From: Juglans regia
Lineage: Eukaryota; Streptophyta; Magnoliopsida; Fagales; Juglandaceae
Assembly (NCBI RefSeq): GCF_001411555.2
Contig: NC_049908.1
Location: forward strand, 26,760,724 to 26,824,723
Reading direction: 5' to 3'
Length of the DNA: 64,000 nucleotides
Below the pieces are notes generated by a model. It was not told where the DNA came from. It saw nothing but the letters and a program-made list of their open reading frames with translations, and searched no databases. Below, piece after piece: positions 1 to 50,591 of this stretch (positions are counted from its first letter, which is position 1; every line of letters starts with the position of its first letter). The position numbers were made by a program, and so were the translations under genes.

Positions 1-535
1 TTTTACAGGTAAAATCCCACAAGCTTTAGGAAACGTGACTGCTCTTGAATCACTAGACTTGTCTAGCAACAAGCTTATTGGAGAGATTCCTCAACAACTT
101 GCAGATGGTCTTATTTTCCTGTCAACCCTTAACCTTTCGTTCAATCAATTGGTGGGAAAGATTCCACAGAACAATCAATTTACTACATTTACAGAAAGTT
201 CATTTGAAGGAAATATACAGTTATGTGACTTTCCCATGAAAGAAAAATGCATACATGAAGAATTGGGACCGTCACCTCCTCCATCTAAAGAATCTCACTG
301 GAATTCAATTGACTGGGACTTCTTAAGTGTTGAGTTGGGATTTGTTTTCGGCTTCGGGATTTTTATTGGACCTCTTATATTTTGGAAGAGGTGGAGGAAA
401 CGCTACTATAAACATGTCGACGACATTGTTTTTAAGATGTTCCCTCGGACATACATAAGAATAGAGAATCATCGAAGGCGAGCATACACGAATCAAGGAC
501 GACAAGCACGAAGGAATCAAGGTGGGAGGGATTAG
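1..535 (+). CDS. LRR receptor-like protein, 3' end only (copy A)
   Basis: This is the C-terminal part of a kinase-less LRR receptor (RLP); the 5' part lies outside the window. The frame is already open at base 2 and the apparent GTG start at 35 is internal. In order it encodes the last LRRs (ALESLDLSSNKLIGEIP, then STLNLSFNQLVGKIP), a cap with paired cysteines (LCDF, EKC), an acidic/proline spacer, one membrane helix with GxxxG-type spacing (about 319-383) and a basic tail starting WKRWRKRYYKH. It ends at TAG 533-535. RLPs of this type sit in the plasma membrane and signal through partner kinases of the SOBIR1/BAK1 kind (family knowledge). The fusion gene at 27964-30279 matches it at roughly nine bases in ten by eye. 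Copy A reads CGA where that gene has its TGA stop, so its tail is ten residues longer. Whether its missing 5' part is also BAM-like cannot be seen. Confidence 0.88.
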   Translation, partial: FTGKIPQALGNVTALESLDLSSNKLIGEIPQQLADGLIFLSTLNLSFNQLVGKIPQNNQFTTFTESSFEGNIQLCDFPMKEKCIHEELGPSPPPSKESHWNSIDWDFLSVELGFVFGFGIFIGPLIFWKRWRKRYYKHVDDIVFKMFPRTYIRIENHRRRAYTNQGRQARRNQGGRD

Positions 536-3606: not shown

Positions 3607-3615
3607 TTCTCTCTC

Positions 3616-3656: not shown

Positions 3657-3660
<4 letters not shown>

Positions 3661-3670
3661 CCAAAAATTG

Positions 3671-5230: not shown

Positions 5231-5443
5231 GGAAAAATATTCGTTCTAGGGATAATGCAATAGCACTTGGAGTCTGAGCAACGCCGGGGATGCCCACGAC
5301 AAGATTATCTTTGACGGTTTTGGAATATAGTGGGAAGATGAACAGCTTTGTTAGCCTTTGGAGTTCAACGGAGTAGAGGAAGAGAAAGAGGATGTGTGTG
5401 GCTTACCAAAAGAAAGGGACGCCGTGCAATGGTGGTTTTGAGT

Positions 5444-12600: not shown

Positions 12601-14106
12601 GGGGGAGACTCATCACCAACACCCAATCTTTGGCCTCTCGAGTCCTAAAAGCCAAATACTTCCCTTCAACTGACTTTTTTGAAGCAAGAGTTAGAAGGGG
12701 TGATTTCTTTGTGTCGAAAAGTATTATAGCAGCCAGACCACTACCCTATGAGGGACTTTTATGGAAGATTGGTAATGGAAACAAAGTGAAGATTTGTTCA
12801 GATCGATGGCTGCCTATTCCAACGTCATACAAGACTCGGCCTCCTCCCAAGGTGCTCAGTACAGAAGCAAACTGTCAACTCTCTCATCGACCAAGACTTT
12901 CACTCTTGGAACCTACCCCTTGTTTAAAGTGTTTTCATCCCTGAGGAGGCTGCCATCACCTCTAGAATTCATATCAGTCCTTGCAACGACAATGACAAAC
13001 AGGTGTGGAGGTGCACTAAGAATGGGATCTTCTCAATTAAATCAGCATACCATCTCCAAGTCCCTGTGAATGATCTCAATAAGGGGCAAGCGTCAGATCC
13101 GACCAAACATGAGGTCCTATGGAAACTGCTTTGGTAGCTTAAAGTGCCTAACAAAACCAAAATATTTCACTGGAGATTATCTAGGGAAATCCTTCCCACT
13201 AGAGTAAACTTGCACAAAAGGAAGATCATTTATTCGCCCATGTGTCCAATATGCTTATCTCATCCTTAAACCGTGTCTCATGTACTATGGACATGCAAAG
13301 CAGCCCAGGATGTATGGAGCATTAGCTCAAGAAGGTTACAGAAGAGTAGGACTGAGGAGGTACCCTTTTATGAAATGCTTACAGAGCTTCTATCCACTCT
13401 CCCACTAGAGGAACACACTAAGTTAACTCTCACAACTAAGGAACTTTGGTACAGAAGGAACAAGTTTATCTTTGATTCCAAATTCGCTTCACCTCAACAG
13501 GTCTTAAAGCTTGTCTCCACTAGCATCACAGAGTTGGATGAGCTAGAAAGGAACTAGCAAAAGATATCTCCTCAGAATCTACCTCCAGCCAAATGGTGTA
13601 AACCTCCAACCAACTATTACAAATTAAATTGGGATGCAGCCATCGACAAGGTTAACTGCAGGGTGGGTATCGGAGTGTCAATCAGAGATTGGCTTGGCCT
13701 TGTGACAGCAACTCTTAGGAGCCCTGCCCTTCTTTTCCTGATCCACTTCTGGGAGAAGCACTTGCTGCCTTACGAGCTGTAAAATTTGGCATTGCGATTG
13801 GTCTCAACAATGTCATTTTTGAAGGCGATTCAAAGCAAGTGGTAAATGGCATAAACGGTTCAACTGAAGACTGGAGAACGGTGAGGCTGATTTATCAAGA
13901 CATCAAGAAATTACTTGGCACTTACCTTTCTTGGTCTATTTGTCATGTACCTAGACAAGCCAATTTAGTGGCGCATTGCCTGGCTAAAAGTTCTCTAGAC
14001 TTATTTGAGGACTCATTTCATGTAGAGGATTATCCTCATTGTATTCACAACTTTCTCCTTTGAGCTATTAATATGAAGTTACCTTTCTCTCTAAAAAAAA
14101 AAAAAA
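9600..14106 (+). mobile_element. LINE (L1-type) retrotransposon 1, decayed
   Basis: A non-LTR retrotransposon in forward orientation. It carries a remnant of the basic C-terminal end of ORF1 (about 9680-9960), ORF2 with endonuclease, reverse transcriptase, zinc-ribbon and RNase H regions, and a terminal poly(A) at 14093-14106. The 5' end is not sharply defined and the element is probably 5'-truncated. Numerous stops and frameshifts make it inactive. Its tail before the poly(A), TATGAAGTTACCTTTCTCT, resembles that of LINE 2. Confidence 0.85.
9965..14063 (+). pseudogene. LINE 1 ORF2 (endonuclease, RT, RNase H), broken
   Basis: The endonuclease starts at 9965. The usual CWNxRGLGN motif reads C-stop-NYRGLGN, so the tryptophan is lost to a stop. 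The SGGLAF block lies at about 10160-10180 and DFNEIASHGEKMGG at 10374-10415. After a frameshift near 10250, one frame carries most of ORF2 from 10341 to 12944, with stops at 10716, 11019, 11226 and about 11424. RT motifs are LKLDMSKAYDRLEW (about 11712-11753) and FVDDSLVF (about 12031-12056), where the usual FADD is FVDD but the aspartate pair is kept. Further frameshifts separate a zinc-ribbon region (about 13090-13330) from an RNase H region starting KLNWDA at about 13624 and ending near 14063. The function would be target-primed reverse transcription; as it stands it cannot make protein. Confidence 0.85.
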
Positions 14107-14630
14107 ACTTATCAATTGTTTAGGGTGATCTTTTTGTATTTGTGGCGGAAGTTTCCCACATTTGTGGCGAGAAATATCACCGTAAATGAATGTTGTATAT
14201 GTGACTAGAATTAATTTTGCCACAATATACTTGAGATATGTTATTTGTGTCCACTTTTCCCGGCAAGGATTGTATATTTGAGTGGCTTACAACAATTTTT
14301 TTAGATAATGTTGCGTAATTAGTGGCGAGAAGAAATAAATGCAACAAATAGTTTTTCGCAGTGCTATTTAGTATTTTTTGCACAATTTTTATTGCCACAA
14401 ATAGTTTCCGTTGAAAATAAATGCAACTTGGGATCAATTTATAATTGGAGTTAATTTTTCCGTAATGATTAATTTGTCTTTAAAAATAGTTATTAACGAA
14501 TATAATTAATTTCCCACAAGAAATTTAATATAAGAGAACAAAAGATTTAGATATCTACAATTTGTTGCCCATCCCACATAATACATTTATTATTATAATT
14601 AGTCAATTCAAGTACTATACGTATTAGTTA
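14107..14630. other. AT-rich non-coding with TTTGTGGCG motifs
   Basis: Repeats of the words TTTGTGGCG and GCCACAAATAG in both orientations resemble the interior of non-autonomous CACTA elements. No terminal inverted repeat could be fixed and there is no gene. Confidence 0.3.
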
Positions 14631-14995
14631 ATTTTTGTTATTGCTCATGTCTATCGAGAAGGAAATCCGCCGGCTGATTTTTTAGTTAAAATGGGAGCTC
14701 AAGGTTCAACTTGTGTTTGGAGATCTCTTATGCATGTGCCTAGATTTCTTAAAGGTTTGAGTCAAATGGATAAAATGTCTTTACCATATCTGAGAGGGCA
14801 ATAAGATGTTCTTTCTCTTATATTTTTTCAAGTAAGTTTTGGGGAGTTTTTTAGACATGTGCAGTGTTGATTATTCTTTTTAGGCTTCTTATGTAATGAT
14901 GGTATTCCTCCACAGCAAGTGAGGGTTTTATTAATAAATTTGGGAAGGGGTCACTCGTAGACATGTGATCTCGTTCTCTTTAAAAAGAAAAAGAA
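14631..14995 (+). mobile_element. LINE 3' stub (RNase H C-terminus and 3' UTR)
   Basis: About 14645-14804 reads HVYREGNPPADFLVKMG and then a tail ending at TAA, the typical end of the RNase H domain of plant LINEs. A 3' UTR with GAGGGTTTTATTAATAAA and GGGGTCACTCGTAGACATGTG follows. It is a 5'-truncated copy of a LINE family different from LINE 1 and LINE 2. Related tails lie at 23940-24055 and 55492-55740. Confidence 0.65.
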
Positions 14996-15293
14996 AAAGT
15001 ACTATACGTATTATATATAGACTACAATTTGCGCTAGTTATTCACAAACATATAAATGGTAACCAAGTTCCCCCTTAAAACCCGAGCCCAATTTGGCCCA
15101 GAACGAAATTTAAAAAAAGAAATAGAAAAAAGGAAAGCAAGAATTGCTTGCTAAAGGGCAAGCAAACAGCTAGAAAATGTGGCTAATTAATCTCCTCTCT
15201 GGCGTAGAGGTTTCTCTCCGGTCGAGTGCAGGATCTCATCAATCATATTGATTCAACATTATTTTGTTGCTCTTGGTGCATACTTGACACAGT

Positions 15294-16775
15294 ATGGATC
15301 CAAGTCTTGATTCATTGTGTGCGCACTTGTCGTTAACCGAATAGGAGGAAGAGGTTCTGAAGGGTGAGGAGCATTCGTTGGGGGATGTTCTTGTTAGGAG
15401 TGAAAGATGTTTGTTGTTCAAGTTGTTAACTTTCAAACATTTCAACAAGGAAGCGCTTAAGTCTACCATGAAGACGGTTTGGCACCCTACCCATGCATTA
15501 ACCGTTCGTGATTTAGAACCAACATTGTTTATTTCTGAATTCAAAGATATGAAAGATAAAGATCGTGTTAAACGTGATGGCCCTTGGAGCTTTGATAAGC
15601 AACTTGTTTTAACAAGTGATGTGGACGGATTGAAACAAGCTCACCAAATTCATCTTACTAAGGCACTGTTTTGGGTCCGTATTCATGACCTACCAGTCAT
15701 GGCACGAAACGCTACTATGGAAAACATCATTGGGAAGGCTATAGGCAAAGTTGTGGCAATTGATTTAGATCCTGATGAAATGTCCTGCAGTGAATTTATG
15801 CGTATAAGTGTTTGCATGGATGTGTCGAAGCCTATTTTAAGTGGAAAGAAGGTCTGTGTGGGATCATCTCAGCCTGTCTAGGTGAATTTCACGTACGAAC
15901 GCCTTCCAATTCTATGTTATCTCTGTGGATTGATTGGACATATCCATCGTGACTGTGAAGTTTGGGAGGAGTCTATGAATTCTTTGAAAGTTTCTGAATT
16001 TTCCTACAGTCCTTGGCTCCATGCAGGGGATGATAATAGTCCTACTCTAAGTCATTTCCACTAACAACTTGATCAGCGAAGTCCATCGGTGCATCCTGAG
16101 GAACAAGTCTCTGGTGAATCTAAGAGTAACAGTCAGATGGAAGTTACTGGGGATCATTTAAGTTCTAAGTATGTTTCGAAGCAGTTACACCAGGAGTCCA
16201 ATCCAAATCATGCAGGTTCAGAAAAGCAGTTAAACTATGAGGCCAATCCTAATCAAGTAAGTTCTACGAAGCAGTTATCTTCAGTTAATGGTGATGAAAA
16301 AAATTCGGGTTCTGGTCTATATAGGATGTTTGATGCTAATAAAGGAATTTTGAATGATACATGTTTGATGGGGGTCTCTGAGGATTTTGTTGCATATGGT
16401 GGTTTGTTACCAATTACTGAGGAAGCTAGTTTTGTTAATAAAGTTGGTGGGTCTGAAGAAGTTTTAGATAAATTCAAGTCTCAAGTAACTGAGTCACGTA
16501 AATGGAAAAGATTCAAGCATCCTTGTATGCATGATAAAATAAAGATTGGCTCTCAGATTGGTGCTAAAAGGGCTTCTAGTCCAACTCCTGGTGTAGAGGC
16601 TACTAGAGTGTCTAAAAGATTACAAAAAATATGGGGAATTTGGATGAGGAAGTATCTGGTATTAATCATGTTGATTTGGTGGTGGCTGTTATTCAGCCCC
16701 ACCAAGCCCCATGAGGATCCTAAGCTGGAATATCCGAGGGCTTGGGAACCCTCGTGGTATTCGAACTCTTGCTGA
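15294..16775 (+). pseudogene. LINE 2 ORF1, DUF4283/zinc-knuckle nucleic-acid-binding protein
   Basis: The frame opens with ATG at 15294 (MDPSLDSLCAHLSLTE) and continues to 16775, interrupted by in-frame stops at 15342, 15879 and 16062. It has the plant LINE ORF1 layout. A DUF4283-type domain (about 15370-15880) includes the block DRVKRDGPWSFDKQLV. A CCHC zinc knuckle follows, CYLCGLIGHIHRDC (about 15909-15950), then a low-complexity linker. Proteins of this kind bind the element's RNA (family knowledge). Three stops in one otherwise continuous frame suggest decay by point mutation. The last 65 bases overlap the start of ORF2. Confidence 0.8.
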
Positions 16776-19700
16776 TTTGATCAGGAGAGAAGATCCCGAA
16801 GTTTTGTTTCTTTAGACTTAGAGCTACTAAAATGGAACTATGTAGAGTGAAATTAAAGTATGCTAATTGCTTAACTGTCGATGCCTCAGGCCGTAGTGGT
16901 GGATTAGCTCTTTTATGTAAAAAGGATGTAAAGTTAGAAGTGATTAGTTACTCTTCTTCTCATATTGAGGCTCTTGTAGATGAAGATGTAAAACAATGGT
17001 TCCTAACTGGTATTTATGGCCAACCAAAAGCCTCAAGAAGAATGGAAACTTGGAATCTTATAAGAAGATTACCTAGTGGCCCCTCAGATCCTTGGCTTGT
17101 CTTTGGTGACTTTAATGAGATCCTAGCTCAGGGAGAAAAATGGGGAGGGAGGAATAGACCTGCCAGCAAATGATGGACTTCTGCCTGTTATTATCTTACT
17201 GCAATTTGAAGGAACTTGGGTTTAGTGGCCCAAGATACACATCGTGTAACAAAGGGGAAGACTCAACACTGGTTACTGAACGATTGGACATATTTTTGGG
17301 GAATCTAGCCTGGTGTAATATGGAACCTGCTTGGTAACTATTGGAACCTGCTAGGTAATCAGTCATACTTTGAAGATGTTATGTCTAGTATCTCTGGTTG
17401 TGCTACTAATTTACAATTATGGAATAAAGTTCAATTTGGTAAAGTGCATTCTAATCTGCAGAAAGCATGACAGAAACTGAAACTAGTGCAACAAAGAGAC
17501 CCTCTTGAACTAAACTCTTCGGAAGTTAATGCAGCATCTGATGAAGTTCATAAATGGTTGAGTAAGGAAGAAATGATGTAGAAGCAGAGATCTCGAGCCC
17601 TGTGGTTAGCTGAAGGTGGTCAAAATACTAGGTTCTTCCATGCTAAAGCATCTTAAAGACAAAAGAAGAATAAAATCTTTCAACTCATGGATGAAGGAGG
17701 TCATTGGCATGAAGGAGAATGCTGTGATAACCTAATCATTAACCATTTTTCTTCTTTGTTTTCCTCTGTAGGTATACATAATATGTCTTATGTGCTGGAT
17801 AACATAGACAGTAAAGTCACAGAGGAGATGAATGCAGATCTTATTAAGCCATATTCTGTGGATGAAGTCAGTAGAGCTCTGAAAGAAATGCACCCGTCGA
17901 AAGCACCAGGTCCTGATGGAATGCCCCCATTATTCTGTCAACAATTCTGGCCTCAAATTGGTAATTCTATATCTGTTGCTGTCCTCTATGCTTTAAATTC
18001 TGGTAATTTTCCACAAGCAGTCAACCACACTTTTATTACCATGGTCCCTAAGAAGAAAAATCATGTTAGAGTCAATGATTTTAGACCCATCAGTCTTGTA
18101 ATGTAATATAGAAACTGATACCCAAAGTCATTGCTAATAGGATTAAAAATGTCTTACCTACTGTTGTATCAGAAACACAATCTGCCTTCTTACCTGGTTG
18201 ATTGATCTCGGATAATGTCCTTGTTGCTCATGAGGTTTTTCATTTTTTAGAAAGGAAAATGAGGGGTAAGAAGGGTTATATGTCATTAAAGCTAGACATA
18301 AGTAAAGCTTATGATAGGGTGGAATGGCCCTTTCTTGAAGCAGTTTTGTTAAAGCTTGGATTCCATGAGAGTTTAACCAAACTTGTTATGAAATGTGTTC
18401 AAAGTGCCTCATTTTCTGTTCTAATCAATGAACTCCTACTGGACATATTATTCCTTCTAGAGGATTGTGACAAGGTGACCCCATCTCTCTTTATCTATTC
18501 CTGTTGTGTATTGAAGGTTTAATTGGCTTACTGAGAAGAGCATCAATTTCAAATTCCATCATGGTATCAAATTCTGTAGAGGGACCCCAAGCTTGAATCA
18601 TTTGTTGTTTGCAGATGACAGCCTCATTTTTTGTATTGCTAGTGTTGAAACTAATGGCAGATTACTTGAGCTTCTGAAATGTTATGGGGATGCTTCAGGA
18701 CAATTAATTAATCAAGGCAAGACTGCCATGGTGTTTAGTCAGAATACTGAGGCTACTAAGAAGAGAGCTATTATGAATCTATGGGGAAATTCTCAGATTC
18801 AGCACTATGACAAATACTTAGGCTTAGCACCTTTAGTTGGTAAATCAAAGTTGACTGCATTTTCTGAGATTAGGCATAAAGTATGGTCGAAATTACAAGG
18901 TTGGAAGGGCAATATTTTTTCTCAAGGGGAAGGGAGGTGTTGCTCAAAGCTGTGGCTTTAGCTAATCCATCCTATGCCATGTCTTGCTTTTTCTCAAGGG
19001 GATAGAAGAAGGAAGAAAAAAAGATCCATTGGATAAGCTGGCGTAGTATGTGTAAGCCTAAAAGTGTAGGAGGTTTAGGCTTCAAAGATTTGGAAACATT
19101 TAATATGGCTATGCTAGCCAAACAGATTTGGAGGCTGCTGCAGTGCACAGATAGTTTGTTCTATAAGATTTACAATTCCCAATACTTCCCTACTTCTAAT
19201 CTTTTTGAGGCCACTCTTGGTAATTCACCCTCTTTTGCATGGAGAGGGATATGGGAGGCTAATAGTCTGTTGATCAAAGGAGAGTGTGGGTAATGGCAAC
19301 AGTATACATATTCTCAATGACTCTTGGATTCCTAATTTTCGATAACTGAGTAATGAAGTTTCTGTTATGTATAACCAACACAGAAATGCACAAACAGAAT
19401 TGGATGATCAAGTCTCTTCTTTAATTGATTGTAATACACATTGGTGGAATATACCTAAGATCAAGACTCTCTTCAATCCTAAAATAGCTGAGGCAATGTT
19501 GGGGATTCATCACAGTTTTACAAATGAACCTGACAAGTGGATTTGGCAACATGAAAGGAGTGGAGCTTTTTCTGTTCGAAGTGCATACAGATGTTTTAAG
19601 GGGTTAACTACCATTAATACAAGGGAGACATCAACTGAGGCCTCAATAAAGAAGTTTTGGAAAGTCATGTGGAGACTGAAAATTCCTCATAAAGTTAGAA

Positions 19701-20617
19701 TGTTTGCATGGAGGGCATGTAAAGAGATTCTTCCAACAAAATCTAATCTGGTCAGGAAAAGGGTGATGGTGGATGGCTCTTGTTGTTTCTGTGATAACTC
19801 AATGGAAGATGTAGCCCATGCAATGATCTTTTGTCCAGATATACATGCATATTGGGTATCCAAATTTGCTATTTTATAGAAACTGGATTTCTTCAGATCT
19901 TTTATGCTAACTGCTATGGAGATCTTTTCTTCACAATCTACTGAATGTTTCACAGATTTTATTCTTATAGCATGGGGATTCTGGTTTAGAAGGAATAAAA
20001 TGATTCATGAAACTGTGAGGCTGCACCCTCAACAAGTTATAAGCCATGCTCTCTCCTTGAAAGGTTTTCAGTCCAAATGTTCTCAACATCAGGTTTTGGT
20101 CAAAAACCTAAATTATTGATGGACTCCTCCTCCTCCAGGCTGGTTTAAACTAAATGTAGATGGGGCTCTCTTATTTGATTGCAATAAAACTGGAATTAGA
20201 GGTATTCTGCGTAGTGATTGTGGTGAGGTGATCATGGCACTTAGCAAAGTTGAAGATGAATTCTTAAAACCAGAAAATGTGGAGGCTATGGTTGTTTTGA
20301 GGGGTCTCCAATTATATTTTCAGATTGGCTTTTACAATCTTCTTATTGAGAGTGATTGTTTACACTTAGTAGAGGAAATAAACAGTGTTGATTCACCTTG
20401 CTCTTCTAGAAGAATTGTTATCACTGAAATTAGAAGACTTATGCTCAAATTTATGCACTGTCAAATCCAACATAATTCCCGTATGGCTAATGCAGCAGCT
20501 CATCACCTAGCAAAGCATGCTTGGTCTATTTTTGATGTGGAATTGTGGTGGCATGGAGTTCCCCACTTTATTGATAATATTGTTTACATAGATGCCATTT
20601 CTTGTAAGCACTCTTAA
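16711..20617 (+). pseudogene. LINE 2 ORF2 (endonuclease, RT, RNase H), broken
   Basis: ATG at 16711 starts MRILSWNIRGLGNPRGIRTL, the canonical endonuclease N-terminus. The frame breaks at about 16813 and resumes at 16832-17173 (SGRSGGLALLC, FGDFNEILAQGEKWGG). RT blocks lie at 17687-18106 (SKAPGPDGMP, NDFRPISL), 18202-18522 (LKLDISKAYDRVEW) and 18593-18961 (LLFADDSLIF, intact FADD box). A zinc-ribbon region lies at about 19540-19870 and RNase H at about 20140-20617. RNase H keeps NVDGA, an ENVEAM glutamate and IESDC as likely catalytic acids. At least four frameshifts and several stops separate the blocks, so no intact protein is possible. Confidence 0.85.
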
Positions 20618-27859: not shown

Positions 27860-27963
27860 CTTCACAGTTCACACTCGACTTATTACAAACATCTTTCTCA
27901 TTCTCGCTCCATATCTACTTCTTCGCTACCTCTCCAAACCAAATCAAGAAATTAAAGAGAAAA

Positions 27964-30279
27964 ATGAAAATGCAATTCCTCCTTTCGCTTCTGCTTCTGT
28001 GCCTCCTCCACGTCCATCCAACCCTCTCTGGCAGATACCTCCTCCTGGAACACAAAGCCCTCCTCTCCTTCAAATCCTCCATCACTGATGACCCACAATC
28101 AGCTCTTTCTACGTGGAATGCCTCCACTAGCCACTGCAACTGGGAGGGTATCACGTGCCACCCTTCCCTTCGCCGCGTGACCGCCCTCAAGCTGGTTCAC
28201 CTTCAACTCTCTGGTACTCTCTCCCCGGACCTAGCTCATCTCAGTTTCCTGTCCGAACTCTCTGTCTCCCTTAATCAGCTCTCCGGGGCCATCCCCACCG
28301 AGCTCTCTTCCCTCTCTGCCCTCCGCGTCCTCGATCTCTCATATAATCGCTTCCACGGCGCTATTCCTGAGTTTATTGGTGACATGCCGGAGCTGGAGGA
28401 GTTGAGTTTGTGGGAGAACAACTTTACTGGGATTATTCCTCAGAGGCTAGGAAAGAATGGGAAGCTTCAGCTTCTTGATCTTTCATGGAATAAACTGACT
28501 GGTACTCTGCCTCCTGATATGTGTTTTGGGAATCGGCTTGAGACTCTGAATACTGAGGAAAATTTATTGGTCGGTCCAATCCCGAACTCACTCGGGAGGT
28601 GCGAGTCGCTGTCTGAGATCCAAATGGGGCACAACTTTCTCAACGGTTCAATGCCAAGAGACCTTTTCGGTTTGCCCAATCTCAGCATTGTGATGCTGCA
28701 GAATAACCGTCTGACCGGGAAGTTTCCCATTTCCTCAAGAAATAATTCTCAATTGAGGGCACTAGATATTTCTGACAACAAGATTCATGGGGAGCTACCT
28801 AGTTGGATCTGGAGACTTCCCGATCTTCAGTTTTTGAATCTTTCTCAAAATTGTCTAGAGACTCTAGATGTGAATTTAAACTCACAGACTTCCCAACCCA
28901 TGTTGAATATCGTAGACCTTCACTCCAACCAGCTCAAAGGGCAACTTTCAACTATCCCACTGGGTTTTCGACACCGAGTCCCGCGCTCAGGTTACGACAG
29001 TATGGCGAGGCCCTTTTTTTTCTTCTCTGTTTCAAGGAATAAATTTGACGGGACTATTCCTACGTCACTATGCAATGCTGCCTATCTTAATGCTCTAGAC
29101 TTGTCCTATAATCACTTGACTGGCATGATTCCCAAATGCTTAATTGAAAAGAGTAAATATCTAAAGGTGATGGATTTAGGGGGAAACAACCTTACTGGCG
29201 TAATTCCCGATTCCTTTTCAGACTTCTGTAGTTTAAAAGCTTTGGTTCTGAATGGAAATCAACTAGAAGGAGAGCTACCAAAATCCTTGGCCAAGTGCAA
29301 TACAGAGTTGGAGGTTTTGGACGTCGGGAACAACCACATTCAGGATACCTTCCCATGTCATTTGAAGAACATAGACACATTGAGAGTCCTTATTTTGCGA
29401 TCTAACCAATTTTATGGGTCTGTTAATTGTCTAGACGCTAATACCACTTGGTCCAACCTACAAATTTTAGACCTGGCCTCAAACCATTTTGTTGGTATGT
29501 TTTCAATACGTTACTTTTCTAGCTGGAAGGCAATGATGGGAACTGAAAATAAGACTGGATCTGAGTTTGAAGATCTCCAATATATAACGCCAGTTCTCAC
29601 CTATCAAATTACGGTAAATGTTACATTAAAAGGTCAAGATTTGGAGTTAGTGAAGATCCGAACTATCTACACTTCACTTGACCTGTCGTGCAACAGTTTT
29701 GATGGACATATACCTGCAGAAATAGGAGAATTCAAAGCCCTATATGCCCTCAACTTATCTCACAATGCTTTTACAGGTCAAATCCCACAAGCTTTAGGAA
29801 AGTTGACTGCTCTTGAGTCACTAGACTTGTCGAGCAACAAGCTCATTGGAGAGATTCCTCTCCAACTTGCAGATGGACTTAAGTTCCTGTCAACCCTTAA
29901 CCTTTCCTTCAATCAATTGGTGGGAAAGATTCCACAGATCAAACAATTTCATACATTTACAGAAAGTTCATTCGAAGGAAATATAGGATTGTGTGACTTT
30001 CCTCTGAAAGAAAAATGCATACATGAAGAATTAGGACCATCACCTCCTCCATTTAAAGAATCTCATTGGAATTCAATTGATTGGGAATTCTTAAGTGTAG
30101 AATTGGGATTTTTTTTCGGCTTGGGGATTTCTATTGGACCTCTTATATTTTGGAAGAGATGGAGGGAACACTACTATAAACATGTCTACGACATTGTTTT
30201 TAAGATGTTACCTCGGGCATACATAAGCATAGAAAATCAACGTAGGCGAGCATCCAGGAATCAAGGACGGCAAGCATGA
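27964..30279 (+). CDS. Chimeric LRR receptor: BAM1-like N-terminus fused to RLP C-terminus
   Basis: An intronless open frame of 771 codons. Residues 1-22 form a signal peptide. The N-cap has [15 protein letters not shown] (51-65). LRRs run from about 73. Residues 1 to about 254 match the BAM1-like kinase at 40384 throughout, including [14 protein letters not shown] and [10 protein letters not shown]. After residue 129 they skip 193 BAM codons in frame. From about residue 255 (RNNSQLRALDISDNKIHGEL) the protein is an ordinary RLP: further LRRs, an island (about 516-565), four last LRRs, cap cysteines, an acidic/proline spacer, a membrane helix about 711-729 with GFFFGLGISIG, and a short basic tail. 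There is no kinase, so signalling would need a partner such as SOBIR1 (family knowledge). Residues 333-351 (FRHRVPRSGYDSMARP) break the LRR rhythm. The start is ATG 27964, with a second in-frame ATG at 27970 that aligns with the BAM start. The ligand is unknown. Confidence 0.85.
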   Translation: MKMQFLLSLLLLCLLHVHPTLSGRYLLLEHKALLSFKSSITDDPQSALSTWNASTSHCNWEGITCHPSLRRVTALKLVHLQLSGTLSPDLAHLSFLSELSVSLNQLSGAIPTELSSLSALRVLDLSYNRFHGAIPEFIGDMPELEELSLWENNFTGIIPQRLGKNGKLQLLDLSWNKLTGTLPPDMCFGNRLETLNTEENLLVGPIPNSLGRCESLSEIQMGHNFLNGSMPRDLFGLPNLSIVMLQNNRLTGKFPISSRNNSQLRALDISDNKIHGELPSWIWRLPDLQFLNLSQNCLETLDVNLNSQTSQPMLNIVDLHSNQLKGQLSTIPLGFRHRVPRSGYDSMARPFFFFSVSRNKFDGTIPTSLCNAAYLNALDLSYNHLTGMIPKCLIEKSKYLKVMDLGGNNLTGVIPDSFSDFCSLKALVLNGNQLEGELPKSLAKCNTELEVLDVGNNHIQDTFPCHLKNIDTLRVLILRSNQFYGSVNCLDANTTWSNLQILDLASNHFVGMFSIRYFSSWKAMMGTENKTGSEFEDLQYITPVLTYQITVNVTLKGQDLELVKIRTIYTSLDLSCNSFDGHIPAEIGEFKALYALNLSHNAFTGQIPQALGKLTALESLDLSSNKLIGEIPLQLADGLKFLSTLNLSFNQLVGKIPQIKQFHTFTESSFEGNIGLCDFPLKEKCIHEELGPSPPPFKESHWNSIDWEFLSVELGFFFGLGISIGPLIFWKRWREHYYKHVYDIVFKMLPRAYISIENQRRRASRNQGRQA

Positions 30280-31998
30280 AGAAATCAAGGTGGGAGGGAT
30301 TAGTGATAGATACGAGGAGCAATGCTAGTCAATGATGTCAGGTATGTCTCCAATTGATTTTTTGGTATGCAAGTAAATGTTGTCCGAAGTGATGTATTAT
30401 ATATAAATTAGCAAGATTGTTGAAATTCCTAAGGCATGATCTCCAACATGGCAGGCTACACAAATTGAACTGGATAGATCATTACAAAGTCGATCCCCCA
30501 CCAGCAGAAAGCGTTATGGGAATGAAGCACGGGGCTTTGTACCCATAATTAGATGTTTAACTCGTGAGTTAGAAAGTAAAATAAGAAATTACATTTGTAT
30601 AAGTTTCTAATAGTATTGGCGTTACTTTATGTAAGAATTTAGTCAAATTTAACAAAATATATGAAACATTTATTTCTGGTTTGCATAACCTATACGTAAT
30701 ACTCTCCGCATTGAATTAGCTGACTTTCCTCTATACCATTAAATTTTTTTTAATTTATTATTAATTCATCTCTTTATTGGGAGAGAGAGTTTAACAATAT
30801 TAATCAAATTAAGGAAGAGATACAGAAAAAAATATTAATATATTATTTAGTTGTGCAACAATGCTAATTAAATTTGTTGGGAGTTTTAGCTGAAAGTTAT
30901 TTTAGCTAACTTTTACATAAGTCAATGCTAATGAAATTTGATCCATAATATTCTTTAAACTTTCACTATCTAAATATTTTATAAAATCCAATGACAATGC
31001 TCTAAGTTGAGTAACACTAAATTCAGACGTTGTTAGCATAAAATAATTAAATATATAAATGAATCTTTTATATATATATATATATATTTATAAATATAGG
31101 TGTGCTTATCAAGTTGTGACGTTCACCACGCTAAGACTATGGCTAGTGTCAATTCCCACAACCATAAGCCGATCCTCGTACCCAGGACAGTTGCAAACAA
31201 CCCATGTAAAAGTTCACGAGTGGTTCTGATCTTTTTTTTTTTTATTTGTCTGTTGTGGCATGTAGTATATATACATATTCTTAAGATGGCTACAAGTTTC
31301 TTCTATGGTTGCCGCTCTGTTATCTAATCTCCTACCCCGGCTTCGGCCAGCCATAGCCCTCACTTATTCGTTCCTCTCGATAAGCCCACGCGGGTCTCTT
31401 CTCATATTCTCCATCATTTTTTCTATCTAACTTGCCACAGGAAGCAGAGTAACTACCTCGTTGCTAATAATTGCTAGCCACCAGCTTCGTCGCACCTTGT
31501 TCCTCTTACGGTGAGTCTCAGACCTTTCTGTCTCTCTGCCTCTGTTATCTCGAGTGAATATTTGTTTCTTTTTGGCATCAAAACCATACTTATACCTAGG
31601 CTATGTTTGGGCACCTAGATGAGATGAGACTCATCTAAAAGACTTTCATAATATTCTTCCCCAACATCACTCAAACATATAACAATTTTCAATTTTAACT
31701 TTTTTCATCTAATTGTTACCTAATCATTACTATGAAGCCCAGTTCTTTCTTTTAGTTGTTGTTTGTGTGTGTGAAGTCTTGGCCAGTGTAAAAGCCAAGA
31801 CCACAAAAAAAAAGGGCACAATCCCTCATCCCTAATATGGCACCATTTTGTACTAAAGAAAGGGGCATGAAACCCTAATCCACTACACCCTTCGCTCTCT
31901 TTTTTCTTCTTTCCTCATTCTCCCTCTCTTCCTTCCTATGCAACACCCCTCCCCAAGCCCCTCTCTCCCTCTTTGCAACTCATGACCTCCCTGCATGC

Positions 31999-32001
<3 letters not shown>

Positions 32002-32035
<34 letters not shown>
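32002..32035. repeat. (CT)n microsatellite
   Basis: A pure CT tract, shorter than its counterpart at 3607-3656. Confidence 0.9.
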
Positions 32036-32040
<5 letters not shown>

Positions 32041-33786
32041 TCCAATAACCGGCATAGTGATCCACATTCACCGAAACTCAAATAATAAACTCTGAACTAT
32101 TGAAACCTAAATTCAGACTCTCTAAAACTCAAAACTAAGATTAAGAGCCAAACTCCCTATTCATCCCACAAGACGGGATTAAATAGATGTCAAAACTCAA
32201 ATCCAGAAGTAAAATAAATGCAGCTACAATCTAGTATAAAAATCTGGAAAATAGTTTCTAAACATAGATGTTAACATAAAAGGAAATTATCCCAAGAATA
32301 TCGAAATTATCTAAAATGGAAGATTCAGTGATATGCGGCTTAAATTACAGAGTTTGGGAGGATTTAGTCGTCAATAGATTGATTACGAAACTCGGAAGGG
32401 TCCCACCAAATAGATGACATGTGCGCTGAATATAATGGCGGGCGTGGAGGTCGCAAAGAACACAAGGCCCTCTTCTCGTCTACCGAGTTGTTGCCCACGA
32501 TATCATTTAGGTTTATTTTTTAAGTTGATCGTTTAGACTAGTCGTCCAATCTAACCACCTAGAGACAATATCCCTTCCAGGGACAATGCGACAACACTTG
32601 GAGTTTGAGCTACGATGGAAACGCCGACGACAAGATGATCTCTGACGGTTCTGGAATATAGTAGGAAGATGAACGGTTTTCTTAGCCTTTGAAGTTCAAC
32701 GGAGTAGAGGAAGAGAAAGTGGACGTGTGTGGCTTACCAAAAGCGAGGGATGCTGTGCGACAATGGTTTTGAGTGGCTGAATCGAGATTAATGGTGGCAG
32801 CAGCTTTTAATGGAGCAAAGCCCAATTTCAGTCATTGTTTTGCTAAGAAAAAAGCAGTGGAGAAAAAAGGAAGAGGAATCGATGTGATCTTACTGAGAAA
32901 GGGCAGAGGAGTAGGACAACAGAGCAAATATGGAGAAACTTTCTCCTTTGAAAGTGGTGGTGAAACACTAAGAGAAAATTTCTTTGTACTGTTAGATCAA
33001 GAGTAACGTGGAGAGATGAAGGTGAGCTTACGATGAGGCTTACTGAGTTTAAAAAACTGCGGCCGAGGACCACGATGGTTGGTTGGGCTCGATTTGTTTA
33101 TAGAGGGAATAAAGGTTGGGTTTCTCTATTGTTGGTGGACGTGTTTGCTATGTGTTGAGGAGTTGGCAAGTGGAAAACATATAGATGGGACCATCTTGGG
33201 CGTGTTCGATCCAAAGTGTTTAAGTGAATTTTAGCAGAGGAAGCCTCAGTATGATGACCGATTGAGAATGAATGGATAACAAAGGAAGGTGGCGTGAACT
33301 GAAGAGTGACTTAAGCAGTTTATTTATAGTAAGCTTCGGTGTGCCTGAAACTAACATGAGCATGTTTTACCCATGTAGAGGGGATATGGCAATTTATCAG
33401 TGAGACTTGGTCAATAGTGTTACGATCAAACACTACAAGTTTTAACTAACTATTTAATCACGTTTATATATTAATAGTGAAATGATAAAATTAATTCTAA
33501 TTTGAATTAAAAAATTTATAATAATATTAAATAAAAAAAATCAAAACTTATAATAATAACTAAATGATTAAATTTATCTTGTCTTTCTCAAATTTACGAT
33601 CGGTATGTTACAGTTACGCAAGGTCCCACCCACTTGTATAAAACAAGAAGATGCAAGACAAAATGTGTAATGACTTCAGCTGTGAAGTAATACCTAACAA
33701 CAAATATGCTAAGTGCTAAACACCCCTATCTTGTTCTTTAATTTGTTGATTATTTAACGGTCTCTGCAATTAAGCATTAAGACACA

Positions 33787-33787
33787 A

Positions 33788-33826
<39 letters not shown>

Positions 33827-33842
33827 AATAAATAAATAAATT
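33787..33842. repeat. (AAT)n(AAAT)n compound microsatellite
   Basis: About ten AAT units followed by about six AAAT units. Copy A has only a few AAAT units at the same place (7103-7128), so the tract expanded in copy B. Confidence 0.9.
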
Positions 33843-34071
33843 TATAGCTCTTTCGCTCCCTCAAATGGATCCCAACCCATTTGGGCTTTTCTCTTGTCAA
33901 CTATTTTCTTTAAAGAAAAGAGAACTATAGGAAGGAGGATTGGATTAGTCAGGTCCGGGCCACCATCCAGGCCTTCCCATATGTTCATTGCATTATAGTG
34001 CTCACTGCATGCACTAAAAGTGGCCAATTCCAGAACAAAACAAAAAAAAAAAGCCTATATACAATAGCTGT

Positions 34072-34390
34072 GACCCACTTTGTGGAGGCCCATAATCAGG
34101 TGGCCTTCGGCCATAGGGTGGCTCCTCGGATTAGATGGAGTTAAAAAAAATTCAATCAAAAAGAAAATTACAAAGGAGGAATAATTTTGTATTTGTAATG
34201 GAAAAACTAGATTCTTTCTTAAAAAATAAAAGATAAAAAGCCATGAAATAGTGAGGGGGAAGCGTTTGGGCTCTTCCACAGCAGTCCAATTTTATTGATA
34301 GCTCTTATTTTTTGTGAAAGAAAATCATAATTACAATCAGATTTCTAAAGGTTACAAATAAACATAAAAACTCATGTATTAAAAATTAAA
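34072..34390. other. Copy B-specific insertion of unknown type
   Basis: Copy A joins CAATAGCT directly to a run ending AAGAAAGCC (7348-7370). Copy B has about 320 bp in between, starting GTGACCCACTTTGTGGAGG. ATAGCT recurs inside it near 34297. No coding frame and no clear terminal repeat. Confidence 0.4.
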
Positions 34391-34990
34391 AGACCCAATC
34401 ATAAACTAAGAAAGCCAAAAAATTACAAACCAAATAGAAAGAATAAATCTAAGATACCAATTTGTAACAAGCGTAACAGAATCACACATATAAGAAAAAA
34501 AATAAAGAAACGAGAAGCAAAGACACAGTACCTCATTTTGATAACATCAAATAAGAAAAATAAATTATATCTATGTGAATAAGGCATCTTAACTGATTAG
34601 ATAAAGTATCTTTATCATCAATTTAGTTTGTATTTAGACCTCCAGAACTCTGCTTAAACAAGAAAATCAACTACAACATTACCCGAAGAGAGATATGAGT
34701 AATTTTATAATCCAACAACAGTACTTAGAATCTAAATTAGTTCGAGCAAAACTCTTCATGTGGTGATTCCTGAAAACATGTAAAATCTCACTGTATTTAA
34801 AATTAAGCTACGCATTACTTATAAAAGGAACACCACCCAATACATTAAATAGTAATTCATGCAACGTGGTTTCTGGGAAGGGGTGGGAATTTGAGCTTCG
34901 GGCATGCTGATCGGGGGTTTGCTCATTTTCATCTTTTTATTAACTTATAAGATTCTTAAGCTTACTATAGAAAAAACAAAAAAAAGTTTT

Positions 34991-35207
34991 AGGATGAGTT
35001 TGGATAGACAGTTCAGATGAGATAAGATGATATATTTGTTAAAAATTAAATAAAATATTGTAAAATATTATTTTTTAATATTATATTATTTTGAGATTTA
35101 AAAAAAATTGAATTATTTATTATATTTTTGTATAAAAATTTAAAAAAATTTTAATAATAAAATAAAATGAGATGAAACGAGATGTTTTGTGTATCCAAAC
35201 CGACCCT
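34991..35207. mobile_element. MITE, GTTTGGAT family, copy 2
   Basis: It starts AGGATGAGTTTGGATAGACA and ends GTATCCAAACCGACCCTTAA. The core has AATAAAATATTGTAAAATAT. It is absent from copy A. Confidence 0.7.
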
Positions 35208-35760
35208 TAAAGCTTTTGCTTTTTCCTAGTTGTAAGTGAAATTGTTTTGAAAAACTATGGTACGTAAGTAGATACAACCAGCGAATCTGTCTCCACCCAA
35301 CTCACTCTTTCCAACTTCCTAACCCCACTCCCCATAAAAACATATTAGTAAACTATACAATAAGAGATTATAAAAATAACCCTGGCCTTCCACAACCTTC
35401 AACCCTCTCATTCCCTCCCTCTTCCCTCACACCAAAATTAATTATGTCACCCTATTTCATACTCTCACTACCATACAAATTCTTAATGCTATCGGCCTAA
35501 CTACGTACGTCCAAACAAATATGGGCCCTTGATTCTAAATGTAACACATGGGATGATGTTGATCCTTGGATTAGGAGCTATTAGAAAAAATATTGTACCA
35601 TATACATCCTTCTCCACATTATGACACAACATCTTTAAACTATCAAACAAAATCGTAATAAACATTTTACAAATCAAAGAGATTATCCTTTGAAAAGTTT
35701 CTATCAAACAAAGTCATTTCCGTCGGCAGGGGCGACATTCTATGGAGTTTGATTTATTCT

Positions 35761-36203
35761 TGTAGCAGCCCAATTTGATAACATGACTCAACAAGATTTC
35801 GGTACAATTTTTTGGGAGAGTTTCAATGAGGCTTGGTCCATAGAGCGTAGGCTTGAGGTGATAAACTTTTGGCCTATTTGGTGATTCAACAAACATCATA
35901 CAAAAAATTCGTCCGAGCAAAACTCAGGCAAATAGTTTTCTCGACAAGTCGTTAGAGCAAATAACGCGATAATTGTGAAATTAGAATTTTCACTATACAA
36001 TCATAAATATATATGTTTATTATAAACAATATGATCGTTCTAAGCATTGTAATTTCACCCAATTGTGTACTTTAACACTTCTCAAGATAATAAAATTTTA
36101 TGTAACTCTGTAGAGATAAGCACGTTATCAAACTATGTAAATTTTTATGTTCTTTGATTGATTTCTTGTATTACTTTACTTTCTTGTATTGTTTTTCACA
36201 ACA
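35761..36203. mobile_element. Possible solo LTR
   Basis: A copy B-specific block of about 440 bp with TG...CA-type ends: it starts TGTAGCAGCC and ends TTTTTCACAACA. It is AT-rich, with TTATAAACAA and later AATAAAATTTTATG, which could be promoter and poly(A) signals of an LTR. No clean target duplication was found. Copy A has no equivalent. Confidence 0.35.
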
Positions 36204-36425
36204 GACTCCCTCTCCAATACCATATTAGAGTCTTGCTTTTTATTCTCTTACTTATATCAAACCATCACCATGTCCAGTCATTTATTTAGAAATCTTCTTC
36301 TTCTTTTCTCTCTATTTTCTTCTTAGAAAAAATGTAAAAAAAAAAAAACTCCCGCCACATAGATATTCAAAATTAGTTAACTACAATCAATCTCACCAGA
36401 TTGAAATAACTTAAATGACAAGTTT

Positions 36426-40274: not shown

Positions 40275-40383
40275 ATAAAGTAACCATTGCTCTCAGAAAG
40301 AACAATAACCAGACCCCCTCTCTCACTCCCACTCCATCTACTTCTCTCTCTCTCTCAACCAAACCGTGGAAGGGAAAAGCAAA

Positions 40384-43300
40384 ATGCAACTCCTCCTTTT
40401 GCTTCTCCTTCTGCTCCACTTCCACATACATCCGGCCCTCTCAGGCGGCCGCATCTTCCCGGAATACAGAGCCCTCCTCTCCGTCAAGTCCTCCATCACC
40501 GAAGACCCACAATCAGCTCTTTCTACCTGGAACGCCTCCACTAGCCACTGCACCTGGTCGGGTGTCACATGTCAACCCTCACGTCGCCGGGTGACCGTCC
40601 TCGACCTCTCCGGCCTTAACCTCTCTGGTAGTCTTTCCCCGGACCTGGCTCACCTCCGTTTCCTGTCCAACCTTTCCGTCGCATCGAATCGGTTCTCCGG
40701 GGCCATCCCCGCCGAGCTCTCTTCTCTCTCCGCCCTCCGCGTCCTCAATCTCTCCAGCAATGGCTTCAACGGCACTTTCCCATCCCAGCTCTCCCTTCTC
40801 AAGAACCTTCAGGTGTTGGATCTCTACAACAACAACATGACCGGTGACTTGCCCTTGGCCGTCACTCAAATGCCCAACTTACGCCATTTGCATCTCGGCG
40901 GTAACTTCTTCTCGGGTGCGATCCCGTCCCAGTACGGGCAATGGGAGTTCCTGGAATACTTGGCTTTATCCGGTAACGAGCTCCAAGGTCCTATACCGCG
41001 CGAGATCGGAAACTTGACCAACCTCAGGGAGCTCTACATGGGATACTACAATATGTACGAAGGTGGCGTACCCCCGGAGATCGGGAACCTATCGGAACTA
41101 GTTCGTTTCGACGCCGCCAGCTGTAACTTATCTGGTGAGATACCACCAGAGATTAGCAGGCTCCAGAAGCTTGACACTTTATTTTTGCAAGTAAATGCGC
41201 TCTCCGGGCCTTTAACCGTCGAGCTCGGGAACTTGGTGAGCTTGAAATCCTTGGACTTGTCGAATAACGTTTTTACAGGCGAGATTCCAGCGTCGTTTGC
41301 CGAGCTAAAGAACTTGACGCTGCTGAACTTGTTTAGAAACAAACTCCACGGCGCAATTCCTGAGTTTATTGGTGACATGCCGGAGCTGGAGGTGTTACAG
41401 TTGTGGGAGAACAACTTTACGAGGATGATTCCTCAGGGGCTGGGAAAGAACGGGAAGCTTCAGCTTCTCGATCTCTCAACGAATAAACTGACTGGGACTC
41501 TGCCTCCAGATATGTGTTATGGGAATCGTCTTGAGACTCTGATTTCTTTGGGGAATTTCTTGTTCGGTCCAATCCCGGAATCACTCGGGAAGTGCCAGTC
41601 GCTGAGTCGGATCCGAATGGGGCGCAACTTTCTCAACGGTTCAATACCAAGAGGGCTTTTCGGGCTACCCAATCTGACCCAAGTGGAGCTGCAGGATAAC
41701 TATCTTACAGGGGAGTTTCCGGATACCGATTCTATCCCGGCGAGTCTTGGCCAGATCAGCCTCTCCAACAACCGGCTTTCCGGGCCGTTACCTCCAAGTA
41801 TTGGCAACTTCTCTGGTGTTCAGAAGCTTTCCCTCGATGGTAATAAGTTCTCAGGTCGAATCCCACCCCAAATTGGGAGGTTACAGCAACTTTCGAAGCT
41901 GGACCTCAGCCACAACGAATTCTTGGGCCCCATTGCTCCCGAACTCAGCCAATGCAAGTCGTTGACCTTCATCGATCTTAGCCGAAACCAGCTCTCCGGC
42001 GAGATACCGAACGAGATGACTGGTATGAGGATTCTAAATTACCTGAACATTTCGAGAAACCATCTGGTTGGTAGCGTTCCTGCTTCAATAGCGACTATGC
42101 AAAGCTTGACCTCTGTTGATTTTTCTTATAACAACCTCTCTGGTTTGGTTCCGGCCACTGGCCAATTCAGCTACTTCAACTCCACGTCGTTTGTGGGCAA
42201 CCCTGACCTCTGCGGTCCTTATTTGGGTCCTTGCAAGGAAGGGGTCACCAATGCTGCCGGCCAGGCGCACGGGAAAGGTCCCCTCTCTGGTTCTTTGAAG
42301 CTATTGCTTGGGATTGGGTTGCTTCTTTGTTCGATTATCTTCGCAGTGGCGGCAATCTTCAAAGCCCGGTCGTTGAAGAAGGCCAGCGAGGCTCGCGCGT
42401 GGAAACTGACCGCATTCCAACGGTTGGACTTCACGGCCGATGATGTTTTGGATTGCTTGAAGGAGGATAACATTATAGGCAAAGGTGGTGCTGGTATCGT
42501 GTACAAGGGATCGATGCCTAATGGTGAGCATGTCGCCGTGAAAAGACTACCGGTAATGAGCAGGGGTTCTTCCCATGACCATGGATTCAATGCGGAGATT
42601 CAGACCCTGGGGAAGATTAGGCATCGTCACATTGTGAGATTACTGGGTTTCTGCTCAAACCACGAGACCAATCTTCTGGTTTATGAGTATATGCCAAATG
42701 GGAGCTTGGGTGAAGTTCTTCACGGCAAGAAAGGGGGTCATTTGCTCTGGGATACTAGGTATAAGATTGCCGTGGAGGCTGCAAAGGGTCTTTGCTATCT
42801 TCACCACGACTGCTCGCCACTCATCGTCCATCGAGACGTGAAATCAAACAACATTCTGCTCGACTCCGGTTTCGAAGCACATGTTGCTGACTTCGGCCTG
42901 GCCAAGTTTCTGCAAGATTCGGGCACTTCCGAGTGCATGTCTGCAATTGCTGGCTCCTACGGATACATAGCCCCAGGTATGCTTTCAATTAAGTTTTGAT
43001 TCACTCCTTTTTCTTTTTGTGATCGTGTTTCTTTAGATACGTACTAGTTTTTGTTTCAAAGTCTTAATTATGTTAAGGCTAGTGAAAAACAAGACTTTTT
43101 TTTTTTGTCTCATATTGTGGTTTGATTCAGTTTCTGCATTATTGTGATAGTTGCTGTCTGTTTCATACGAGTTTTGACTCTTTAAGCCACGGAACCATAA
43201 TTCTGTCATCTTATTTATTGTCGAGACTGTTTATTGTCGACAATCATAAATAATTTTTTATTTTTTAGGAAAAAAAAAAAAAAAACAATTCCATATGTCA

Positions 43301-43916
43301 ATGTTCTTGGCTGCATCGAGTTACAGTGTCATTAGTGTTTCTGTTACCACAAATTGAAGGTTTGTAGATTTAAATGGTAGATTACTCAAGTTTGGTATTT
43401 TGTTTAAAGCAAAAATCAATGTTTCTTCATGCAGAGTATGCCTATACTCTTAAGGTCGATGAAAAGAGCGATGTCTACAGCTTTGGTGTGGTTCTCTTAG
43501 AACTGGTTACAGGCAGGAAACCAGTTGGGGAATTCGGGGATGGTGTGGACATAGTCCAATGGGTTCGAAAGATTACAGACTCAAAAAAGGAGGGAGTCAT
43601 CAAAATTCTCGACCCAAGGCTACCTTCACTTCCTCTACAAGAAGTGATGCACGTATTCTACGTTGCAATGATGTGTGTTGCAGAGCAGGCAGTGGAGCGC
43701 CCAACAATGCGCGAGGTGGTTCAGATCCTAACCGAGCTTCCAAAACCACCGAGCTCTAAACAGGGAGACTCAACATATAATAACATAATCACAGAATTAT
43801 CACCACCACCACCAGGCACTGCCCTACACTCTCCGACCACCACAACGACCATAGACTCGAACGACAGCCAACATGCACCACCTCAATCACCACCACCCGA
43901 TCTGCTAAGCATTTGA
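40384..43916 (+). CDS. BAM1: BAM1-like LRR receptor kinase (CLAVATA1 family)
   Basis: Exons 40384-42976 and 43435-43916 join into 1,024 codons. The 458-bp intron has GTATGC/TGCAG borders and splits a glutamate codon in YIAP-E-YAY, the position conserved in CLV1/BAM genes. The start is ATG 40384; the upstream in-frame GTG at 40366 is not needed. Domains are a signal peptide (1 to about 21), an N-cap [15 protein letters not shown], some twenty LRRs, a membrane helix (about 638-663) and a kinase. The kinase has glycine loop GKGGAG (699-704), lysine K720 in VAVK, HRD (816-818) and DFG (836-838), all intact, so it should be catalytically active. The tail is proline-rich and ends [12 protein letters not shown] kinases perceive CLE peptides at the plasma membrane and act in meristem and anther development (family knowledge). 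The length fits BAM1 (about 1,000 residues). The symbol denotes the closest clade, not proven orthology. Confidence 0.93.
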
Positions 43917-50552: not shown

Positions 50553-50591
50553 AATTCATAAATGCAACAGATCAAAAAATAAAACTGTATA

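Follow-up and report, generated by a model that had tools for sequence, protein, structure and literature searches.

Can a natural rearrangement turn the ectodomain of a hormone-receptor kinase into the recognition part of an immune-type receptor? The question is raised by a 64,000-nucleotide stretch of the walnut (Juglans regia) genome (NC_049908.1, positions 26,760,724 to 26,824,723; here "the window"). On its + strand it carries an open reading frame (ORF) at 27964-30279, with 771 codons and a stop and no interruption, that begins like a receptor kinase of the BAM1 (BARELY ANY MERISTEM 1) type and ends like a kinase-less receptor-like protein (RLP). A preliminary description, made from the DNA alone, had proposed that this ORF is a natural fusion, acting either as a decoy or modulator of CLE peptide signalling or as an immune receptor whose N-terminal surface is new. 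We find that the fusion is natural, in that its halves fall in different families and its joint recurs in relatives. We consider it fairly probable, judging from sequence, that it belongs to a subfamily of RLPs, amplified in tandem, that use a repurposed CLE-receptor ectodomain for recognition and signal via SOBIR1 and BAK1.

Searched separately, as the preliminary description had suggested, the two parts of the protein gave different families. Residues 1-255 matched BAM kinases at 55-64% identity, and the C-terminal half, searched alone, matched RLPs from Fagales and elsewhere at 53-61% (each among the best 22 rows). The C half of a walnut sister protein, P0002, is only ~26-30% identical to BAM kinases. 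A Pfam scan of the ORF returned LRRNT_2 (residues 31-65) and leucine-rich repeats (LRRs) and found no kinase domain; the C-terminal tail is 41 residues long. The window itself contains a BAM1-like gene, and comparing the window with itself aligned 27893-28367 with 40318-40780 of that gene (78.1% identity) and 28352-28727 with 41345-41720 (84.8%). The BAM1-like match stops at 28727, which bears out the earlier placement of the switch near 28725 (residue 254), inside an LRR and with repeat phase kept. The joint keeps the repeat register and falls on an "FP" common to both families (residues 254-255), where the fusion reads LTGKFPISSRNNSQLRALDIS and RLPs typically have the consensus FPDFLRNQS.L..LDLS. 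Further upstream of 27893 the comparison gave no BAM1-like match, only AT-rich matches on the minus strand.

The fusion was not made by a single cut. On either side of 28352-28367 the offset to the BAM1-like gene changes from 12414 to 12993 bases, so that 579 bp, or 193 codons making up eight repeats, are missing in frame. The BAM1-derived half thus consists of the signal peptide, the N-cap, LRR1 to mid-LRR3, the gap, and mid-LRR11 to LRR16 (repeats are numbered by our own count from the alignment). The preliminary description was right about the BAM1 origin of the leader, signal peptide, N-cap and repeats, but its simple picture of the "first LRRs" does not hold. A predicted model of the protein (mean predicted local distance difference test score, pLDDT, 86.0; predicted template modelling score 0.78; 58 aligned sequences) forms a single solenoid, in which the spacing of predicted strands stays at one repeat through the joint (starts at 218, 242, 266 and 290); residues 251-260 around it have a pLDDT of 83. 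Foldseek against the PDB matched the model to LRR receptor ectodomains only, with FLS2 best and HSL1, MIK2 and PXY also present; RXEG1 was not among the best 50 matches.

We next asked whether the joint is peculiar to this one gene. For each protein database search the best 120 matches were listed, out of thousands (3947 in the first search). P0002 (946 aa) shares the BAM1-RLP joint, retains the eight repeats, and has a last stretch of 177 residues that is letter-identical to the product of window positions 2-535. The gene truncated at the window's left end is therefore a fusion too. The preliminary description had compared the C-terminal part of the ORF, as an RLP with island, membrane helix and short tail, to that gene end; its account of the C-terminal part stands, whereas its taking of the gene end for a plain RLP does not. 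The same joint occurs in four proteins of pecan (Carya illinoinensis), P0003 to P0006 (P0006 being partial), which come from two locus-tag series. One of them, P0005 (786 aa), can be aligned over its full length with that of the window protein, P0001, at 74%, and the eight-repeat gap is common to both. When P0002 was searched at whole length, walnut and pecan proteins were the only fusions among the best 120, a limit beyond which other plants may have more. Among the 215 non-kinase proteins in a set of 336 that we compared, made up of 335 database and window entries and the spliced BAM1-like gene of the window, the six fusions have N-half identities of 64-100% over at least 80 residues, and the other 209 reach at most 51% over at least 80 residues. 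What had been described as a single fusion is thus a small family, with six members sharing one joint in two genera. A third walnut C half of the fusion clade, P0007, was found as a 438-aa protein.

These relatives bear on the most trivial explanation, that the ORF is an artefact of assembly or two genes read as one. The window gene was not itself among the retrieved protein matches, as such an error might leave it. The frame, however, runs open through the joint, and because the sister gene and pecan proteins from both locus-tag series share that joint, we reject an assembly error; we give the artefact next to no credence. No report of a BAM1-RLP fusion was found among titles and abstract openings in the open-access literature, so that a mention elsewhere is possible, and excerpts of a pecan scab paper (PMC10868059) name no such gene.

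How did the family arise? We constructed a tree for each half, both rooted at the midpoint for drawing only. In the tree of the N halves, with 25 rows, all six fusions fall into a single clade (100/100) beside the BAM1-like gene of the window (100/99), and the BAMs of Fagus, Carpinus and other plants fall outside this group. In the tree of the C halves (29 rows) the six fusions and P0007 form one clade (100/100), which groups with the walnut RLP P0077 (98/95). The simplest reading of the two trees would be one fusion event before the walnut-pecan split, from the BAM1 lineage of Juglandaceae, with tandem amplification afterwards. The N-terminal recognition repeats of an RLP of the island-plus-four-LRR type would then have been replaced once by the local BAM1 ectodomain, probably through recombination that kept the repeat phase of two LRR-coding stretches. 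The two trees place the window gene differently inside the clade: by its N half it joins the pecan proteins, by its C half the neighbouring walnut copies, a conflict that suggests exchange between copies at a later time. In the N-half tree P0001 stands beside all four pecan proteins rather than beside P0005 alone; the eight-repeat loss of these two may have been one event or two.

The RLP half appears equipped to signal. Island-plus-four-LRR RLPs such as RLP23, RXEG1, Cf-9 and Ve1 resemble the fusion in the island, the terminal LRRs, the QxxT motif, the acidic juxtamembrane, the GxxxG helix, the short tail and the lack of a kinase, and they differ from it in that its N-terminal repeats derive from BAM1, a receptor kinase. 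In the window fusion the island (residues 518-570) is followed by four LRRs, seen as four later strands of the model. QxxT is present in the last LRR of six of six fusions, the outer juxtamembrane of P0001 to P0006 has a net charge of -5, -5, -5, -6, -6 and -7, respectively, and the membrane helix of every fusion contains GxxxG (two motifs in five proteins, one in P0006). In chimeras of RLP23, pairing with SOBIR1 needs the GxxxG helix, and BAK1 needs the juxtamembrane and the last LRR (PMC10834447, in part). An engineered EFR-Cf-9 chimera likewise signals through SOBIR1 and BAK1 (excerpt of PMC6637901). The RLP half of the fusion would therefore, if these rules carry over, retain the parts for pairing with SOBIR1 (acidic juxtamembrane, GxxxG helix) together with a QxxT that recruits BAK1. 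The expression of the fusion, its pairing with SOBIR1 and BAK1, the class of its ligand and its immune output are all points that we infer.

An immune output is not the only one conceivable for such a protein. The fusion could act like CLV2 or TMM, as a developmental co-receptor in the perception of growth peptides, and its N half does derive from a developmental receptor. QxxT, an acidic juxtamembrane and GxxxG are, however, the set described for immune RLPs in the relevant part of PMC10834447, and fast change of the concave face (below), tandem copies and variation in repeat number fit recognition RLPs better, so a developmental role seems to us most improbable.

Has the BAM1-derived half kept the means to bind CLE peptides? 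An RxR motif is reported to make salt bridges to the last residue in many peptide ligands, and CLV1, BAM1 and BAM2 are among the receptors said to have it (PMC6162732, in part); PMC9191895 gave no passage on this motif. We compared the fusions with 121 BAM kinases, namely the BAM1-like gene of the window and its best 120 listed matches. All 121 BAM kinases have RxR, whereas none of the six fusions does; P0001 to P0006 read EIQ, VIR, RIV, EIQ, NIQ and EIR at this position. An LFLQVN repeat is likewise found in all 121 kinases (as LDTLF in 113, and as MDTLF, LDSLF or VDTLF in eight) and in 0 of 6 fusions. The F of this repeat is residue 270 in a Capsella BAM (P0292), and from its position we take it to be Phe269 of AtBAM1, the core phenylalanine of a docking model, not of a crystal structure (excerpted text of PMC8847575). 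Spacing has changed too. From N-cap to RxR, BAMs have 346-353 residues in 104 of the 105 that were measured and 324 in one (16 of the 121 were unmatched by the pattern); fusions P0001 to P0005 have 155, 302, 300, 336 and 155, and P0006 has no cap. In the related receptor HAESA the peptide IDA lies on LRRs 2-14 (PMC6749341, in part), and most of the equivalent stretch is deleted in the window gene.

The decoy or modulator of CLE signalling that the preliminary description had envisaged would need an ectodomain still able to bind CLE peptides or BAM partners, by which CLE signalling is damped or redirected. The N half is truly BAM1-derived, and the long fusions (P0002, P0003 and, in part, P0004 and P0006) retain repeats 4-8; since the specificity of BAM1 for CLE9 has been placed mainly in an N-terminal pocket (PMC8847575, same excerpt), weak binding by these forms is possible. 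But RxR and the core-phenylalanine repeat are gone from six of six fusions, and in HAE the pair F268A and R409A abolishes the complex and its function (also PMC8847575). The window gene moreover lacks the repeats from mid-3 to mid-11, and the face with which BAMs bind CLE peptides is the fastest-changing part of the fusions. On the sequence evidence a CLE decoy is unlikely, and we put very little weight on it.

To compare that face with the rest, five positions per xxLxLxx strand were taken as exposed. Between the BAM1-like gene of the window and the 120 BAM kinases, the ratio of change at exposed to other positions is 0.33-0.99 (median 0.63) and exceeds 1 in 0 of 120 comparisons. Between the fusions and the same gene it is 2.2-3.0 in all six. 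Among the 15 pairs of fusions, which are not independent, the N half gives ratios of 1.4-6.5 throughout (p<0.05 in 12), and the C half 0.8-2.0. As comparators, six hand-chosen pairs of RLPs gave N-part ratios of 1.9-2.8 in five and 0.86 in one. Ratios with P0001 as reference count a stretch of the signal peptide (residue 12) as a repeat; a polarised count, which starts at residue 69 and excludes the signal peptide, leaves the picture unchanged. For this count five outgroup BAMs served as reference, at positions where four or more of them agree. Relative to their consensus, the BAM1-like gene of the window differs at 3 of 58 exposed positions, and P0001 to P0006 differ at 17/28, 23/48, 24/48, 21/46, 14/28 and 21/48. 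The change thus lies on the fusion side.

Codon comparisons point the same way. Between the BAM1-like gene and the window fusion, the nonsynonymous rate (dN) is 0.53 at exposed codons, and other LRR codons have a dN of 0.086 and a synonymous rate (dS) of 0.268; dS over the N half is 0.29. The exposed codon count was reached in 0 of 50000 permutations. The preliminary description had proposed following dN/dS along the gene: at the exposed N-half codons it is 1.83 (bootstrap 1.01-3.27), and over the last 169 codons, window fusion against sister gene, it is 0.35 (range 0.19-0.70). We favour diversifying selection on the exposed face of the fusion, as the sequences suggest. The concave face has changed fast on a constrained LRR scaffold, in a BAM1 half that has lost its known CLE-binding features, and the product would most likely be a cell-surface, probably immune, receptor whose remodelled face senses a ligand other than CLE, with output via SOBIR1 and BAK1. 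As to the two functions first proposed, the immune receptor is thus favoured by the RLP end and the fast concave face, as far as sequence can tell, and the CLE decoy is not. Going one step further, we give even chances to the fuller statement that an immune-type receptor took over a hormone-receptor ectodomain which, freed from CLE binding, is now an actively diversifying recognition module beside a conserved BAM1-like neighbour, its repeat number and concave face evolving like those of N-terminal RLP regions.

Two other explanations meet the same evidence. Built-in decoys are an idea that comes from intracellular immune receptors, and the BAM1 ectodomain might be kept as a bait for microbial molecules, with an attack being reported through the RLP half. 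A bait would look much like this: an RLP signalling end that carries a surface taken from BAM1, with an intact BAM1-like gene adjoining. A targeted surface should nevertheless be kept, and it is the concave face, the one examined, that changed most, and whole repeats have gone; we think a bait very unlikely. The second explanation is that the fusions are decaying or relaxed by-products with no selected recognition role, in which the concave face drifts neutrally and the scaffold is kept generically or for lack of time. The exposed dN/dS range reaching down to 1.01, the dN/dS of 0.61 over the N half as a whole, a repeat number that varies freely, and a gene model of P0004 whose last LRR stretch has 84 residues instead of 100 would all suit it. 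Against it, the ORF of P0001 is uninterrupted and five relatives with the joint exist as full or partial gene models in two genera; dN falls well short of dS at the other LRR codons, as it does over the last 169 codons; and the signalling motifs are retained in every fusion. We regard a by-product as unlikely, if worth taking seriously.

Several observations weigh against the reading we prefer, that of a diversifying, SOBIR1- and BAK1-coupled recognition RLP. An exposed-to-other ratio of about 3 would also result if the surface were simply released from constraint and the scaffold kept. Three of the 15 fusion pairs miss p<0.05, and the exposed dN/dS comes from one DNA pair and 40 codons, with 2.3% of replicates at or below 1; because the relatives were compared as proteins only, each half offers a single pair for judging selection on codons. 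The lysine motif of RLP islands, Yx8KG or Kx5Y (from the same part of PMC10834447), appears as Yx8KG in P0001 and P0003 and not in P0002, P0004 or P0005 (2/5), and as Kx5Y in 0/5. In Ve1 the first thirty repeats are required yet can be replaced by those of Ve2, and repeats 30-35 cannot (PMC3914901, in part). N-terminal repeats are thus swappable, and island-side repeats may matter as much for specificity; as the repeats near the island decide function in Ve1, the N half of the fusion need not be the whole recognition part. Finally, the best listed database match to the window protein is 77% identical, the protein itself being absent.

The fusion can be set beside known modified receptors. It is like BAM1 in the signal peptide, N-cap and LRRs of its N half, and unlike it in having no kinase, in the loss of RxR and LFLQVN, and in its variable repeat number and fast concave face. 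The EFR-Cf-9 chimera also places a receptor-kinase ectodomain on an RLP end, but it is engineered and joins the whole EFR ectodomain to the Cf-9 endodomain (PMC6637901, same excerpt); here the joint is natural and lies inside the ectodomain, and the island and terminal LRRs of the RLP are kept. Natural rearrangements of LRR receptor-like kinase (LRR-RLK) genes are known, and 15 of 57 Arabidopsis LRR-RLPs have been placed in LRR-RLK trees (PMC7318236, in part). The maize case in that source joins LRR-RLK fragments to unrelated genes, or has a converted kinase domain, and does not occur in other sequenced plants; the two sections of that source considered here do not describe a fusion of an RLK ectodomain with an RLP. 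That plant surface receptors evolve in modules has been suggested before (PMC10834447, in the part cited).

The surrounding DNA reflects the same history of duplication (Table 1). Positions 29769-30786 match 1-1070 at 85.1% in the comparison of the window with itself, and the match extends in pieces to 8921 and 36266, so the RLP end of the fusion and ~6 kb behind it are a segmental duplicate of the left window edge. The left copy (1-8921) contains large insertions, such as one of ~1.0 kb (1136-2168) and another of ~1.5 kb (3691-5236). The BAM1-like gene (40384-43916) reads as complete and, with its intron removed, encodes 1024 residues with a kinase (Pfam). Its best database matches are from Carpinus and Fagus (84%), and no walnut or pecan entry is among the best 120. 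Remains of non-LTR retrotransposons lie at 11622-19879, with an RVT_1 ORF (11622-12944), a DUF4283 ORF (15378-15881) and a zf-RVT ORF (19367-19879). At 50161-50555 a 196-bp unit occurs twice head to tail with 100% identity, with 74-bp repeats nearby (49235-49405 and 50692-50852). Rfam gave nothing at or above the gathering score in the 64-kb window.

Table 1. Coordinates of the fusion ORF, its parts and related neighbouring features in the window
Feature	Position	Strand	Basis or remark
End of upstream sister fusion (P0002, 946 aa; remainder left of window)	1..535	+	Identity
Leader matching BAM1-like gene 5' of its start	27893..27963	+	Window self-comparison
Signal peptide and N-cap, residues 1-74	27964..28185	+	LRRNT_2, model; boundary at about residue 23 judged by eye
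LRR1 to mid-LRR3, BAM1-derived	28186..28351	+	Alignment to BAM1-like gene
Internal deletion junction, flanks alike on both sides	28352..28367	+	193 BAM1 codons (8 repeats) missing, in frame
LRR12-16, BAM1-derived; EIQ at RxR position 28615-28623 (residues 218-220)	28368..28725	+	
BAM1-RLP joint at "FP" (residues 254-255)	28723..28737	+	Self-comparison, alignment
RLP-derived LRRs N-terminal to island	28738..29514	+	Protein searches, model
Island with Yx8KG, residues 518-570	29515..29673	+	
Terminal LRRs and C-cap, QxxT = QFHT	29674..30018	+	Model strands 570-573, 593-597, 619-621, 644-646
Outer juxtamembrane, net charge -5	30019..30105	+	Sequence
Membrane helix with GFFFG and GISIG	30106..30153	+	Sequence
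41-residue tail and stop, kinase-less	30154..30279	+	ORF, Pfam
Segmental duplicate, in pieces, of 1-8921	29769..36266	+	Self-comparison
BAM1-like receptor kinase gene, exon 1; has the LFLQVN repeat (F codon 41182) and an intact RxR (41608-41616)	40384..42976	+	
BAM1-like gene, exon 2 (rest of kinase)	43435..43916	+	Intron at 42977-43434 deduced from frame and splice signals

In this window a natural swap between the hormone-receptor and immune-receptor classes can be traced to a gene of the donor lineage, a recipient family and an exact joint, with donor-lineage gene, product and joint in one 64-kb stretch. If our reading is true, a new specificity was built naturally from a hormone receptor. 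Its recognition face has switched from being more conserved than the scaffold to being less conserved, a comparison that offers a direct test of ligand change in receptors. For walnut and pecan, this receptor cluster would be worth testing against diseases.

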